The translations under genes and the position numbers were made by a program. The notes beneath the pieces were generated by a model. The model was not told where the DNA came from and did not search any database. It saw only the letters and a program-made list of their open reading frames with translations. This document shows, in pieces, positions 3,555 to 10,694 of a stretch of 10,834 nucleotides of DNA. Where the stretch lies: assembly GCA_016202645.1 (NCBI GenBank), contig JACQOF010000078.1, positions 1 through 10,834 on the forward strand. Reading direction: 5' to 3'. Position 1 is the first letter of the stretch. The number at the start of each line of letters is the position of its first letter. Origin of the DNA: a bacterium (GTDB lineage: Bacteria; Lindowbacteria; 2-12-FULL-62-27).

Positions 3555-3610
3555 CTCTAACGTCGGCATCAGCCGCGGGCGCAGCCCGGCGGCTGTATGC
3601 ATAGTTAGCC
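3555..3610 (-). other. attC recombination site of the HEPN/DUF262 cassette
   Basis: The minus strand carries inverse core GGCTAAC, left arm GCATACAGCCG, a GC-rich central hairpin, right arm CGGCTGATGC and core GTTAGAG. The arms pair fully except for one extra A, the kind of extrahelical base IntI uses to choose the strand. The TAA stop of the preceding gene lies inside GGCTAAC, as in classic cassettes. At 56 bp it falls in the usual short attC range. This is the best-formed attC in the window. Confidence 0.88.
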
Positions 3611-5332
3611 TTGGGTCGCTACCGCAGCATCGGGGTCGACAACGGTCCGTAACAGACGCCAGATCTCATCGCGACGCATGCCGCGAAAGCGGTCATAGGT
3701 GTCGGCATCGAACGCGAGTCTAGCTGGGTCGGTGGCGAAGTCCAGCACTAGTAAATGTTTCTCGATTGGTACGCCGCTCCGCTTGAGACGGGCAAAATAT
3801 GAGGCGGGTAACTCTGCTCGCTTTCTAATGTTGTCGGTCGCTCCGACGAACCGCAAGTTGCCGATGTCGTTTATCTCTCGGTTTCCGAATCCGAGTCTAG
3901 AGCGCAGCATGTGCTGCGGGTAGATGTGATCAACATGGGGTTCATTGCCCTTAAACGAGACGTCGAATGGCGATTCTCCCCATGCTCTGGAATAGACTAT
4001 GTTCAAAAGGAGGGGCCGCAAACGCGTGTCCCAAAGGTCGGAGTCGGCCAGCTCAACGCGAACCCCACGGCTGCTTCTGAAGTACTGTGTGATTTCATCG
4101 AGCGGAAACGCGCTTGCGGTACTCTTCAACAATCTTCCGACGAGCACGTTCAGTGTGGCGTCAGTCTGGCTACCGAACCATCCGAAGAGCTGAGCCTTGT
4201 GGAAGTAGGCCGTCATCTGTACGCGGCGGAATTCGTCTGGCTTTGGGCGATGGAAGAGGTGCACGAAAAGTGGGATGAGCGCGTTGTAGCTGCGGACAAC
4301 GCGGTTGGCCTGGAGGCGAAGACTGTGAACCATGAAATCCCGGAGTTCGCGGAACGCCTGTTCAGCCTGATCCCACTGCGCCTCCATGCGGCTCAAGAGA
4401 CTGGCGCCGCGGGTTCCTTCGAATTTCGCCGTCGTTATCTCGGCCCCTTCGCCATGCGCCAACGAGAGTGCCTTCAACACGAAGTCGCTCTCGATCGTGA
4501 GGCGGCCACCATTGAGCAAGTCTAGGGTTTGTTCGATCCGCGTCTCAACGTCGTCCCAGCCTTCCTTCATCGCCGCGAACATCAAGTCGCCGGCAGTCAG
4601 CTTCGTGCCACCGGAATTGACGCGGACGAAGATCTCGAGGATGTGCCGGTAAGGGTACTGCTTGGCGACACCATCCAATTCATCGATCCAGAAATGCTTG
4701 TCGTGATTGAGCAGAGAGGATAGCTGAGAGATGGCAGACCGTACGCGTCTCTCTTGGACCCGGCGCTCTTCGCCGGAGGCGGCCAGAAGACCGGAGAATT
4801 GCTCGTTGAGAATGTCCGCGATCTCGAGAGCATTGCCGTTCTGATGTCTTTCTACAAGGTCGCGGATTCGGAACCATGGCAGCGGGAGCCGATCTGCTGA
4901 CCAACGAACAGGATAGAGGAGATCACCCTCCGCGAGGTGACCCGACTGGAGGGCGGGATCGATGTAGGCTTCCTCTTGGGCTCCTGAGCCGTTGAGCATG
5001 GCGCCGCGGAACAGGCTGTGAAGGCTTTGAAGGCGCTGCTGGCCATCCAGGACGAATGTCTTCTCGACACCTGCAGCGGAGCGGTTTAGGTCGTAGAGGG
5101 CTGACAGGTCGGCGTCGGGATCTACGACCTGCATGAAGCGCCGGGCTCGAATTGCCTCTGTCGTCCGCCAGAAGAGGAAGGTCTGGATCGGATAGTCGCG
5201 CATCAGGCTGTCGAAAAGCCGTTCGGTCTGGTGGGCCTGCCACACGAACGGGCGCTGAATGTGAGGTAGGAGAAGCCTGTTGCCGTCGATGTCCTCCAGC
5301 AGTCGGAATAACGAACGCGGAGTGTAGCTCAT
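3605..5332 (-). CDS. DUF262 and DUF1524 (HNH) domain protein, GmrSD-like nuclease
   Basis: A complete 575-aa protein. The N-terminal DUF262 half shows IQRPFVW (25-31) and DGQQR (96-100), the two hallmark blocks; in this fold, related to ParB/sulfiredoxin, they belong to a nucleotide-binding and hydrolysing site. FVRVNSGGTKL (235-245) is also typical of DUF262. The C-terminal DUF1524 part has HVDHIYPQ (466-473) followed by NDIGNLRFV (488-496), matching the His-Me finger/HNH nuclease centre. All key residues are present, so it looks intact. DUF262+DUF1524 proteins include the type IV restriction enzyme GmrSD, which cuts glucosylated hydroxymethylcytosine phage DNA, and BrxU-like enzymes; the target here is unknown. 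The ATG overlaps the upstream stop as ATGA (5332-5329), so translation is probably coupled and the two products likely act together. It should be cytoplasmic. The stop lies inside the attC. Confidence 0.9.
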   Translation of the reverse strand: MSYTPRSLFRLLEDIDGNRLLLPHIQRPFVWQAHQTERLFDSLMRDYPIQTFLFWRTTEAIRARRFMQVVDPDADLSALYDLNRSAAGVEKTFVLDGQQRLQSLHSLFRGAMLNGSGAQEEAYIDPALQSGHLAEGDLLYPVRWSADRLPLPWFRIRDLVERHQNGNALEIADILNEQFSGLLAASGEERRVQERRVRSAISQLSSLLNHDKHFWIDELDGVAKQYPYRHILEIFVRVNSGGTKLTAGDLMFAAMKEGWDDVETRIEQTLDLLNGGRLTIESDFVLKALSLAHGEGAEITTAKFEGTRGASLLSRMEAQWDQAEQAFRELRDFMVHSLRLQANRVVRSYNALIPLFVHLFHRPKPDEFRRVQMTAYFHKAQLFGWFGSQTDATLNVLVGRLLKSTASAFPLDEITQYFRSSRGVRVELADSDLWDTRLRPLLLNIVYSRAWGESPFDVSFKGNEPHVDHIYPQHMLRSRLGFGNREINDIGNLRFVGATDNIRKRAELPASYFARLKRSGVPIEKHLLVLDFATDPARLAFDADTYDRFRGMRRDEIWRLLRTVVDPDAAVATQG

Positions 5333-6606
5333 CGCTGTTCGCTCCGCTGAGCGTACAGGTCTTTGAGAAGAGCGTTGGTTTCAGCGAAGAGATCTACCAT
5401 GCCTTTCATGACGGCTTCGTTCTTTTGCCAAAACGTATCCGGCGTGGGCCGCCGGCGCGCACGGGTAAAACCGAGCATCACCTCCGCCAACGCCTTGTCG
5501 TGAAAGCTCAGCTCATTACCGTGCGATCGTGAGCCAAATTCTGAGAAGATTCTTAGTTCTGCACCTGCAAGGGCGCCGTCCGGAAGTTCGAAATGAAGTG
5601 CTTTATCGAACGGAAAGATGTTGTGGAAGGCGCGGTTGCGCGCGTCACCGACGAGATCGATATATCCCTTCAGCGACGGCTTGCGTCGTGAGCGTGTCCA
5701 GGGCAGGCTCTTGAGCGCTTCCGACAGGTCGTGGTGCTTGTCAATCGTTGCCCACAGGACCAGCGGCTTCAAGTCGCAGACGCTTACGATCAACCGGAGG
5801 AGAGTGCTGGCCTCTTGTGAGAACGCGTACGCGACCCTCAATACCTCATTGAAGTGGATCTTTCGGCTCTCATCGGCCTGCGCTCGGGTGTATTTGACGA
5901 GGACGGCCCCGTAGTCAGACACGTGTTCCCGCAACGCCTTCACAATCGTGTCGAGAATGCCAGTATGAGGGCGCATTTCCGGCTGAGGAAGTCGCAACGA
6001 CGCCGCTCCTAAGCCCAGGAGCGTGTCCAGTGCTTCTGCGAACTCTGGTTGGGTCTGTGGCGAGACGGTCAGTCCAGAGGCATCGGCCGCGCTCATGTAG
6101 GCGGACCAAAGGGCTTCTTCATCCTCAACTGAGTTTATTTCCACCACATCACCGATCATTGTCAGTAGTTCCCGTGCCGCGGGATTCCACACTATGCGGC
6201 TGATCGAACCGGTCCTAGGAGCCGCTTCCACTCGGCGGTCCTCGCTGACGCTGCCGATGAGGCCGAAGACTAGGTGGCCCAGCATTTTCTTCTGTTGGGA
6301 GATCGAGGCCTGTAGTGACTGGAGCACCGGCCGAGGTTGAGTAGCGGCAAAGCGACGGAAGTCCAGATTCTGGCGACTCGGAAGAGTCGTCACGGTGGGT
6401 GGTGTCTTTAGGCGCCCACCAGGTCCTACCTCCACAGCTAAGTAGAGTGGAGACTTTTCTGTCTGGACTTCGCGGAAGACAAAAGAGTTGTTGATGAGAA
6501 TCAAGTCTCCCTCTGCTACGTGTTCATCAGAGGCCCACTTCTTGAACTCTGGGTGTGACTCAATCCGTCGAACCGCGCGAACCACGCGCTCTTCCGGCGA
6601 GGCCAT
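5329..6606 (-). CDS. HEPN-like protein coupled to the DUF262/DUF1524 nuclease
   Basis: A 425-aa protein from ATG 6606, with GGGAG a little far upstream (about 12 nt). Residues 1-110 are mixed alpha/beta (GDLILINNSFVFREV). Residues 215-420 are mainly helical and contain GDARNRAFHNIFPF (320-333). R323-N-x3-H328 is a good match to the HEPN RNase signature R-x4-6-H, including the polar residue after Arg. No membrane segments are seen. I do not know this full-length family. HEPN proteins are commonly metal-independent RNases in toxin-antitoxin and abortive-infection systems. Next to a DUF262 protein with a 4-bp overlap, it is best read as the partner subunit of a two-gene defence system: effector, sensor or regulator. 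The cassette core site starts 30 bp upstream of the start codon, so there is little room for a private promoter and expression probably depends on upstream sequence. Confidence 0.75.
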   Translation of the reverse strand: MASPEERVVRAVRRIESHPEFKKWASDEHVAEGDLILINNSFVFREVQTEKSPLYLAVEVGPGGRLKTPPTVTTLPSRQNLDFRRFAATQPRPVLQSLQASISQQKKMLGHLVFGLIGSVSEDRRVEAAPRTGSISRIVWNPAARELLTMIGDVVEINSVEDEEALWSAYMSAADASGLTVSPQTQPEFAEALDTLLGLGAASLRLPQPEMRPHTGILDTIVKALREHVSDYGAVLVKYTRAQADESRKIHFNEVLRVAYAFSQEASTLLRLIVSVCDLKPLVLWATIDKHHDLSEALKSLPWTRSRRKPSLKGYIDLVGDARNRAFHNIFPFDKALHFELPDGALAGAELRIFSEFGSRSHGNELSFHDKALAEVMLGFTRARRRPTPDTFWQKNEAVMKGMVDLFAETNALLKDLYAQRSEQR

Positions 6607-6635
6607 TCAGTCGTAGCTCCCGATGTCCGTCATAG

Positions 6636-6642
6636 GGCTAAC
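6636..6642 (-). other. Cassette boundary core site GTTAGCC
   Basis: The minus strand reads GTTAGCC, the 7-bp core that begins the two-gene cassette. On its far side (6643 onwards) I cannot find an inverse core or paired arms within about 150 bp. It is therefore not a complete attC. It may be an attI-like site, the stump of a deleted attC, or a secondary insertion site. Confidence 0.6.
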
Positions 6643-7109
6643 TCGAAGTAGACAGGTCGGCGCATGCCGCTGCGTCGTGCAGCAAACGCTGCGATCGACG
6701 CGTCACCGGCCGTCCGAGCCAGTCGAACAGTTTTCGCTTGCGCCGCACACATTGTGCTAAGACCCGATCACGACCCGGTGGGCTGCCGGCCGCTGCCGCG
6801 TAGCGCGTCTGTGCGAAATCTTCGGGCTGCGAGGGCTGGTCACGAGTTGAACATCCGGTCCGCCGGGCTCCGCACAGCGGCAGGTCCCATGCGCACGCGT
6901 TCGAGGGCGGAGCGGGCAGGGCGCGAGCGGGTCAGGCTCACGCACGGCGGGTGCAGCGTCTGCCACGCTCGGGGACCAGCGGGTCGCGGTGCTCATGTGC
7001 GCGATGATACTAGCCATCATAGTTCTACGACCGAGCGCCAGCAAGATGTCAACAACAGATGTCAATCGTAGGAGACGCGCCAGTTGGGCCAGGCGCGAAT
7101 TCGAGCAAC
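6643..7109. other. Long stretch without a supported gene
   Basis: Several frames are open here because of the GC content, but none has a ribosome binding site, a recognisable domain or protein-like composition. The only structure I see is two TTGACATC motifs on the minus strand near 7047-7065 (listed separately) and a small inverted repeat, TGATACTAGCCATCA, at about 7007-7021. It may be the remains of an integron platform or of decayed insertion sequences. Confidence 0.5.
7022..7065 (-). promoter_or_regulatory. Possible leftward promoter with a duplicated TTGACATC
   Basis: The minus strand has TTGACA twice, at 7065-7060 and 7052-7047, each followed by TC. A weak -10 candidate TAGAAC (7027-7022) lies 19 nt from the second one. 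It points towards the two-gene cassette, whose first gene starts about 415 bp away. The spacing is one or two bases long and the -10 is poor. The repeat could instead be an operator. Weak support only. Confidence 0.22.
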
Positions 7110-7330
7110 GCGCCGCCGCCCCAGGGCCCAGAATGCGACGATCAACCCCTCGCCTGTTTCACGGTGAAACACCGGGGCCTGGAATGCGACTTCCAGACCC
7201 CCTGATATCATCATGTATCACCCAGCCCAGAATGCCTTACAGTCCGGTGGTACATCGTGTACCACCCGACCCAGAATGCGAGGTCGAATCCCTCAGCACC
7301 CGGTGTACCAGCCGCGTCAGAGTGCGAACT
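7110..7330 (+). repeat. Degenerate palindrome-bearing tandem repeat, about five copies
   Basis: The motif GGCCCAGAATGCGAC, more or less diverged, recurs with its GAATGCGA core at 7131, 7182, 7230, 7274 and 7320, a period of 44-51 bp. Most copies have a short palindrome 7-11 bp upstream: GTTTCAC-g-GTGAAAC (7156-7170), TGATA-t-CAT-c-ATGTATCA (7203-7220) and GGTGGTACA-tcg-TGTACCACC (7246-7266). The last copy has only a four-base CACC/GGTG stem, and I see no clear stem in the first. Stem sequences differ between copies but stay self-complementary. A further copy lies at 10659-10694 in the opposite orientation. The function is unknown. Confidence 0.7.
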
Positions 7331-8381: not shown

Positions 8382-8840
8382 GTGAACGAGCGGCCTCAGG
8401 TTTTCTTGTCATACGCCGGCGAGGATGGCTTCGAAGCCGCCTTGCTGCAGCAGGCCGTTGAAACTCTGCTCCGTGACTTCAGTGTCCTGGTTTGGACTTA
8501 TGAGCGAGACCAAGCGCGCGACGAGCGGCATGTCGGCACCAGCCTGAGGGAGCGGATTCGTCACTCGGTGGCCGCAATCATCCTCATATCCCAATTCACG
8601 CTCTCGTCTGGCGCCACACAGTGGATGGAGCTTGCTTATGCCGACGCATTTGACGTGCCTACGTTCATCCTCTTGCACCACATTACGTATGACACTCTGA
8701 AAGCATCTGAGACAGGCGTGCCGCCACTCGTCCTAGAGGGTCAATGCACGCCAGCCGGAAGTTGGCGGCTCCTCGAGGACGACTTTCGGCGTTGTTGTAG
8801 TCGGCCTGCTGTGTTGTCAACGTCCGGTGATGGCGGATGA
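8382..8840 (+). CDS. TIR-domain protein (first of a pair)
   Basis: A 152-aa protein starting at GTG 8382, with AAGGTGAG upstream and the cassette core only 17 bp away. VFLSYAGEDG (7-16) is the first TIR block (box 1, FxSYxxxD). GTSLRERIRHSVAAIILIS (52-70) is the helix and strand that follow the BB loop. QWMELAYA (80-87) carries Glu83 in the position of the catalytic glutamate of NAD-cleaving TIR domains. The protein is almost only TIR, with a short tail and no sensor domain such as SAVED, NACHT or WD40. Bacterial TIR proteins commonly cleave NAD+ or make ADP-ribose-type signals on phage infection. The stop TGA overlaps the ATG of an in-frame upstream extension of the second TIR gene. Activity is inferred. 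Confidence 0.88.
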   Translation: MNERPQVFLSYAGEDGFEAALLQQAVETLLRDFSVLVWTYERDQARDERHVGTSLRERIRHSVAAIILISQFTLSSGATQWMELAYADAFDVPTFILLHHITYDTLKASETGVPPLVLEGQCTPAGSWRLLEDDFRRCCSRPAVLSTSGDGG

Positions 8841-8866
8841 CATCGATCCCGGGAAGGGAGTCGCCT

Positions 8867-9223
8867 GTGAGTCGAAGAGTCTTCATCTCCTACAATGCGG
8901 CGGATAGCGAGCTTGTCGCTCCCGTAACGACGTGGCTTCGCACGTCGGACCTTTCCCCAGCCGAGATCGCTGACCCCGTGGGCTCTATGTCTGCTGCGCA
9001 AGACGTTCGATCGGTGATTCAAGACAGCATTGCCACTTGCGATGCGATGGTTGTCATCTGGTCGAAACGCGCTGCCGAGTCCAAATGGGTTCATTACGAA
9101 TTGGGCATGGCGCAAGCGCTCGGCAAGCGTATCGTGGTCGTCTTGGCCGGCGGCTCGCCCTCAGAACTGCCTCAAGAGCTAGCGGACACACAACACGTGC
9201 ACCTGAATGCGAGGTCTGCTTAA
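8867..9223 (+). CDS. TIR-domain protein (second of a pair)
   Basis: A 118-aa protein from GTG 8867, chosen because GGGAAGGGAG lies six bases upstream and the TIR domain begins at once. ATG 8837 is in frame, overlaps the previous stop as ATGA and would add ten residues; it is the alternative. RVFISYNAADSE (4-15) is TIR box 1. SVIQDSIATCDAMVVIWS (49-66) is the core helix and strand. WVHYELGMAQALGKR (74-88) carries Glu78 at the usual catalytic place. VVVLAGG is a core strand. It is distinct in sequence from the first TIR, so it is not a recent duplicate. The stop TAA lies inside the attC inverse core. Two single-domain TIRs together suggest a hetero-oligomer or an effector/regulator pair; this is inference. 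Confidence 0.85.
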   Translation: MSRRVFISYNAADSELVAPVTTWLRTSDLSPAEIADPVGSMSAAQDVRSVIQDSIATCDAMVVIWSKRAAESKWVHYELGMAQALGKRIVVVLAGGSPSELPQELADTQHVHLNARSA

Positions 9224-9286: not shown

Positions 9287-9900
9287 CGCGACGAGGAGAG
9301 TCCCGATGACATCGGCACCCGAAAGGCTACCTGACAACGACACCTACTATATGGGTGTTGCGGTGGCTGTGCGCGAAAGGGGGAACTGCACGGGGAACCG
9401 CATCGGCGCCGTAGCGGTGCTCCAGAACCGGATTATCTCTACCGGGTACAACGGTGTTCCCGAGGGCATGAAGAATTGCCTGGAGGGCGGGTGCCTGCGC
9501 TGTCGAAACCCGAACGGCCGGTTTCCCTCGGGAACTGGCTACGACCTATGTATCTGCGTTCATGCAGAACAGAACCTGCTATTGAGCGCGGCGAGATTCG
9601 GCATCGCTGTTGAAGGCGCCACAATTTACAGCACGATGCAGCCCTGTTTCGGCTGTGGGAAGGAACTGCTCCAGGCGAAGGTGAAGCGAATCGTCTACCT
9701 TCACCCCTGGACACCTTCAGACGCTGATCCTGAGATGGATAGCAGCAAGAAGGCGGAGCACGAAAAGTTGCTTGCGAAGTTCGATACGAAACGACTGTCT
9801 TTCAAAGATCCCCGCGCGAAGTGGGCCGTCACGGCTCTTCGGAAGAAGAGCTAACTTCGCAGTCGAGCGGACCGGCTTCGCCGGCCGCTGAGCGCGCCCC
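9281..9900 (+). mobile_element. Integron-type gene cassette with a deaminase gene
   Basis: The cassette begins TTAGCT (9281-9286), and its own attC inverse core is AGCTAAC (9849-9855), the exact complement of GTTAGCT. It is 620 bp with one gene starting 25 bp in. This is a typical cassette. Confidence 0.8.
9306..9854 (+). CDS. dCMP deaminase-like zinc-dependent deaminase
   Basis: A 182-aa protein from ATG 9306, with GAGGAG at 9293-9298. HAEQN (86-90) provides the zinc-binding His and catalytic Glu, and PCFGC (113-117) provides the two zinc cysteines. This is the signature of the deoxycytidylate/cytidine deaminase superfamily. GYNGVPEGM (48-56) and the extra cysteines between residues 58 and 83 are typical of dCMP deaminases, which convert dCMP to dUMP. 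Key residues are all present. The C-terminal 40 residues are basic and lack a known domain; there is no P-loop partner as in AvcD. In a cell this could feed dTTP synthesis. In a cassette among defence-type genes it could instead deplete or edit nucleotides during phage infection, as other deaminases do. The second role is inferred from context only. The stop codon is inside the attC inverse core. Confidence 0.88.
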   Translation: MTSAPERLPDNDTYYMGVAVAVRERGNCTGNRIGAVAVLQNRIISTGYNGVPEGMKNCLEGGCLRCRNPNGRFPSGTGYDLCICVHAEQNLLLSAARFGIAVEGATIYSTMQPCFGCGKELLQAKVKRIVYLHPWTPSDADPEMDSSKKAEHEKLLAKFDTKRLSFKDPRAKWAVTALRKKS

Positions 9901-10567: not shown

Positions 10568-10658
10568 CGTTTGAGGCCGTTCCATAATGGCGATTGCGTT
10601 CTGGTGGCAGGAAATCCCGACGGGACGAGTGAAGGACGGGAAGGCTGGCACCTGAAAG

Positions 10659-10694
10659 TCGCATTCTGGGCCGGGTGATGCATGATGATGCATC
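10659..10694 (-). repeat. Isolated copy of the palindrome plus GGCCCAGAATGCGA repeat
   Basis: The minus strand reads a hairpin GATGCAT-catc-ATGCATC, then ACCCGGCCCAGAATGCGA. This is the same arrangement as the tandem repeats at 7110-7330, in the opposite orientation about 3.4 kb away. The stem sequence again differs but is self-complementary. Confidence 0.65.

Follow-up and report, generated by a model that had tools for sequence, protein, structure and literature searches.

Organisation and boundaries of the locus

The DNA analysed here, referred to as the window, is a stretch of 10,834 nt that represents part or all of a contig (C47, 1-10834) of a 2.9-Mb metagenome-assembled genome (MAG), which is 82% complete and belongs to a phylum represented by three genomes in the collection used. 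Its minus strand carries two adjoining ORFs. The first encodes a protein of 425 aa (P0001, 5329-6606), the second a protein of 575 aa (P0002, 3605-5332) to which the domains DUF262 and DUF1524 are assigned by homology. The stop codon of the first and the start codon of the second gene share the four bases ATGA (5329-5332), an arrangement from which translational coupling is likely. The ATG of the second gene is supported as the start since homologues of P0002 begin at the same alignment column. Chance does not account for two overlapping, co-directional ORFs of such length, one of which shows full-length homology. The ORF lengths, the overlap and the positions of all motifs quoted in an earlier first-pass annotation of this DNA were each recovered from the sequence.

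Both genes are contained in one integron cassette (3561-6641). This had been proposed before, and the same coordinates were now obtained from the fold of the attC site and from the boundary of the upstream leader. The attC site (3555-3610, minus strand) forms the 3' end of the cassette, with R'' (GGCTAAC) adjoining the stop codon of the second gene and R' reading G^TTAGAG. Folded as single-stranded DNA it shows 20 pairs in 56 nt with a stem pairing TAAC with GTTA (-17.8 kcal/mol, z -4.3), and an equally good fold was reached by 0 of 200 shuffles. A scan requiring 6/7 core matches did not pick up the site; a less stringent one recovers it but is unspecific on its own (~2.5 matches per shuffled strand). 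Hence the assignment as attC rests on the fold, on the placement of the site at the stop codon and on the boundary that the two leaders share.

At the 5' end, the core site G^TTAGCCC (6632-6642, minus strand) adjoins an attI-like, non-coding leader of ~530 bp (6639-7165, minus strand) which is located upstream of the cassette and reads into it. The genome holds a second copy of this leader (G000:C70:4658-5198) with ~84% identity (E 3.9e-165). The identity breaks off exactly at ..CGAG^TTA; past this core site the two contigs diverge, C70 carrying another first gene. Two attI-like leaders, each followed by its own first cassette, would look this way. The recombination points were placed at 6641/6642 and 3560/3561 because of the attC core and the end of the identity between the leaders, the 5' limit thereby being set by the leader comparison, independently of the attC site.

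A complete integron integrase was not found in this incomplete MAG using the TIGR02249 profile, which yielded only fragments or matches below the cut-off. The best partial matches are located on contigs C106, C52 and C128, none of them beside the leader, and the match on the contig of the window is confined to its first 138 bases. Between P0001 and P0002 no convincing attC was found. Given the overlap and the shared cassette, the two genes travel as one unit and are probably expressed together.

P0002 resembles BrxU over its entire length

P0002 contains the motifs IQRPFVW (residues 25-31), RLFDS (38-42), DGQQR (96-100) and HVDHIYPQ (466-473, with DHIYP at 468-472). It matches GmrSD_N of Pfam with 9e-26; GmrSD_C alone remains sub-threshold (15 of 23 bits), whereby the respective region is covered by the HEC-05 profile and by BrxU. 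The PADLOC profile HEC-05 is matched with 2.7e-62 over residues 1-566 and the solved BrxU chain (PDB 7p9k) with 2.5e-26 over residues 10-573 at ~26% identity, at which the substrate range of BrxU would not be confidently transferable. Further PADLOC matches are PDC-M55C (4.3e-27) and, weakly, PD-T4-2_A (8.5e-7), with HEC-05 scoring far better. In an alignment of nine BrxU-like proteins (P0002 and eight relatives) the regions around RLFDS, DGQQR and DHIYP are conserved or invariant, and S42, D96/Q98/Q99/R100, D468-H469 and N501 are invariant.

These data bear out the earlier description of a DUF262/DUF1524 protein with intact motifs. The accompanying statement that the system could not be matched to a named one is not supported for the enzyme, as P0002 is a whole-length homologue of BrxU/HEC-05. 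By homology it is a single-chain GmrSD type IV restriction enzyme, and by itself an ordinary member of the BrxU/GmrSD type. BrxU cleaves DNA carrying 5mC, 5hmC and glc-5hmC in an NTP-dependent manner, and draws on RLFDS, DGQQR and DHIYP for nucleotide use and for cutting such DNA (PMC8565348). HEC-05 has been reported to be BrxU and to function independently, with no partner needed (PMC11411939). Unlike BrxU/HEC-05, which is found in a BREX or Hma setting, P0002 shares an integron cassette with an orphan protein.

The closest relatives of P0002 that were found (50-54% identity) are encoded on two Bradyrhizobium plasmids and in one MAG of the Limisphaerales (Verrucomicrobiota); relatives in viral contigs were not found. 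Searching the loci of these three and of 15 more distant relatives by tblastn and inspection of the ORFs revealed a P0001-like gene in 0 of 18 cases, the flanks, often only ~1.3 kb, reaching the adjacent gene and not distant ones. The neighbours vary: a DUF2971 gene, no adjacent partner at all, BREX genes, or a ResIII helicase gene together with a gene without Pfam match. This fits an enzyme that is able to act alone. Of the earlier proposal that the pair is a single system, the overlap and the common cassette stand; an obligate pairing finds no backing in the 18 relatives without such a neighbour. An enrichment of integron-type integrase domains near GmrSD genes has already been reported (PMC4619093).

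Two of the related loci show peculiarities of their own. In Bradyrhizobium sp. 27S5 (NZ_CP147716.1; L007:6001-7725) the BrxU-like gene is annotated as two CDS although tblastn aligns it in one frame, which suggests an in-frame stop. The 54% identical gene of the Limisphaerales MAG (L010:861-5433) is directly followed by the ResIII helicase gene and preceded by an unassigned ORF that resembles the C-terminal portion of a DNA methylase.

P0001 is a protein without detected relatives

No family match was found for P0001 in Pfam (parts of the protein searched to E 10), NCBIfam, PADLOC, PHROGs and the PDB sequences, which includes HEPN profiles and solved HEPN structures. Likewise, neither tblastn in plasmids and phages (E up to 10) nor six-frame searches of ~1,360 genomes revealed homologues; this set samples the large phyla thinly, and relatives of P0001 may exist. 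Peptide patterns derived from P0001 gave no match in genome and viral contigs, nor did a degenerate DNA pattern for DARNxAFHN in viral contigs. Three weak matches were rejected: one in genome G362 is DnaK, one in Flagellatimonas lies antisense to a VWA gene, and one in Klebsiella belongs to a gene which adjoins a GDSL-lipase-domain protein and looks phage-tail-like. AlphaFold2 without alignment returned no usable model (pLDDT 36 for the full length, 40 for residues 240-425); the C-terminal half is predicted, at very low confidence, to be mostly helical.

Further features of the window

A repeat containing GCCCAGAATGC occurs in several copies at 7120-7300 and 10650-10690. The stretches 7207-7235 and 10661-10689 are the two arms of a 29-nt inverted repeat (93%) and enclose the plus-strand cassettes, as though they delimited an element. 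Two TIR-domain ORFs (8382-9223) share a 4-bp ATGA overlap, the second being similar to ThsB of Thoeris. They reside in what appears to be a single plus-strand cassette, possibly a second defence cassette. A further cassette gene (9306-9854) encodes a ComEB-like dCMP/cytidine deaminase similar to anti-phage dCTP deaminases. On the minus strand, a protein of 406 aa (368-1588) matches PHROG 27609 (function unknown; 1.4e-11) and contains RRDLEH, which follows the same Rx4H spacing as a motif of P0001 discussed below; its resemblance to HEPN proteins is at the level of the motif only.

Possible roles of P0001

Three roles of P0001 were weighed as mutually exclusive readings, with the remainder of the probability left to other roles. 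A tentative case can be made for a regulator or specificity subunit of P0002 without RNase activity. Here the ATGA coupling suggests stoichiometric synthesis, and TgvAB of the Vibrio island VPI-2 provides a precedent. In this two-protein GmrSD-type restriction system, encoded by two co-transcribed genes of which the second combines DUF262 and DUF1524 as P0002 does, TgvA is obligatory and has no nuclease domain (PMC11411939). However, TgvA itself is a DUF262 protein, whereas P0001 shows no DUF262 match in Pfam, and BrxU and HEC-05 do without a partner.

Slightly less probable is that the cassette holds two unrelated genes, P0002 acting alone and P0001 having a separate function. The 18 relatives of P0002 without a P0001-like neighbour and the orphan nature of P0001 would agree with this reading; the 4-bp overlap of stop and start and the lack of a convincing attC between the genes do not. 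Integron cassettes usually carry one gene. Two overlapping genes in one cassette therefore suggest selection for joint carriage, which likewise counts against unrelated genes.

The third role would couple a DNase to an RNase: P0001 would be a true HEPN endoRNase whose activity is kept in check by, or set off via, the BrxU-like sensor. DNA would be restricted first, and RNA cleaved, with arrest of growth, in a second step, following a logic like that of PrrC. P0001 had been read as a HEPN RNase in the first-pass annotation. The motif behind that label, RNRAFH (residues 323-328), is indeed present and fits the R-polar-x3-5-H pattern, the consensus form being R-polar-x3-H; in the HEPN fold of four to five helices, the motif closes helix 3 (PMC3710099). 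The label finds no counterpart in the profile searches, silent even at E 10, and the models, with pLDDT 36-40, are too poor for a comparison of folds. RNRAFH is the single feature of P0001 that points to HEPN. As shuffling of P0001 yields Rx4H in 64% of cases, its presence alone is not significant, and R[NDH]x3H still occurs in 10%. The stricter RNxx[hydrophobic]HN (RNxxFHN in P0001) is found in 0.025% of the shuffles, but this pattern was drawn up with the sequence already in view. On either side of RNRAFH, helices are predicted with pLDDT ~40, a placement that is at most consistent with HEPN. Homologues which could show conservation of R323 and H328 were not found in the searches described above. 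On balance we regard this role as unlikely.

A coupling of HEPN and DUF262 is in principle already known. PD-T4-2 is composed of a DUF262 protein and a HEPN protein (PMC10952713) and, as a two-gene pair, resembles the arrangement described here; it is without DUF1524, though, and P0001 matches no PADLOC model including PD-T4-2_B. Hence P0002 and P0001 do not qualify in PADLOC as a pair of PD-T4-2_A and PD-T4-2_B homologues. A fusion of HEPN with ParB(DUF262)-HNH (VNG7073 type) was listed as early as 2013 by Anantharaman and colleagues (PMC3710099). It likewise combines HEPN, DUF262 and HNH but is a single protein of the Abi2/Swt1-type HEPN group, whereas P0001 is separate and without family match. 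When tested at the sequence level, the pair is none of TgvAB, PD-T4-2 or the VNG7073-type fusion. P0002 is best regarded as a new BrxU/HEC-05 group member, and its setting is new as well, an integron cassette that it shares with an unassigned protein.

Proposed working and significance

P0001 is best read as an orphan accessory protein within a BrxU-type restriction cassette, possibly an RNase or a regulator, and we consider it fairly probable that P0002 is a modification-dependent type IV enzyme with P0001 as its accessory in one of these two functions. Against this explanation stand that no relative of P0001 was found whose neighbours could show co-occurrence, that the neighbours of the P0002 relatives vary, and that the identity to BrxU is only ~26%.

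By analogy to BrxU, the DUF262 domain of P0002 would bind and hydrolyse nucleotides, the enzyme would detect modified cytosines of phage DNA entering the cell, and the HNH domain of DUF1524 would cut this DNA. P0001 would be co-expressed with P0002 through the ATGA overlap, from the upstream leader. It might act as a second line of defence, a HEPN-type RNase released upon failure of restriction, or as a non-catalytic regulator or specificity partner in the manner of TgvA. A bolder version, a new family of HEPN-type RNases known from this locus only and wired to a BrxU-like sensor-nuclease such that modified phage DNA triggers cleavage of both DNA and RNA from one cassette, appears improbable to us.

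With this locus, a restriction enzyme of the BrxU type is found on a mobile integron cassette from a poorly sampled phylum, next to a probably co-expressed partner without known family. If P0001 is neither an RNase nor a required subunit, the restriction cassette is an ordinary one and P0001 its passenger. If it is one of the two, the pair would add to the few known cases, namely TgvAB, PD-T4-2 and the HEPN-DUF262 fusions, which tie DUF262 or type IV restriction to a second protein.
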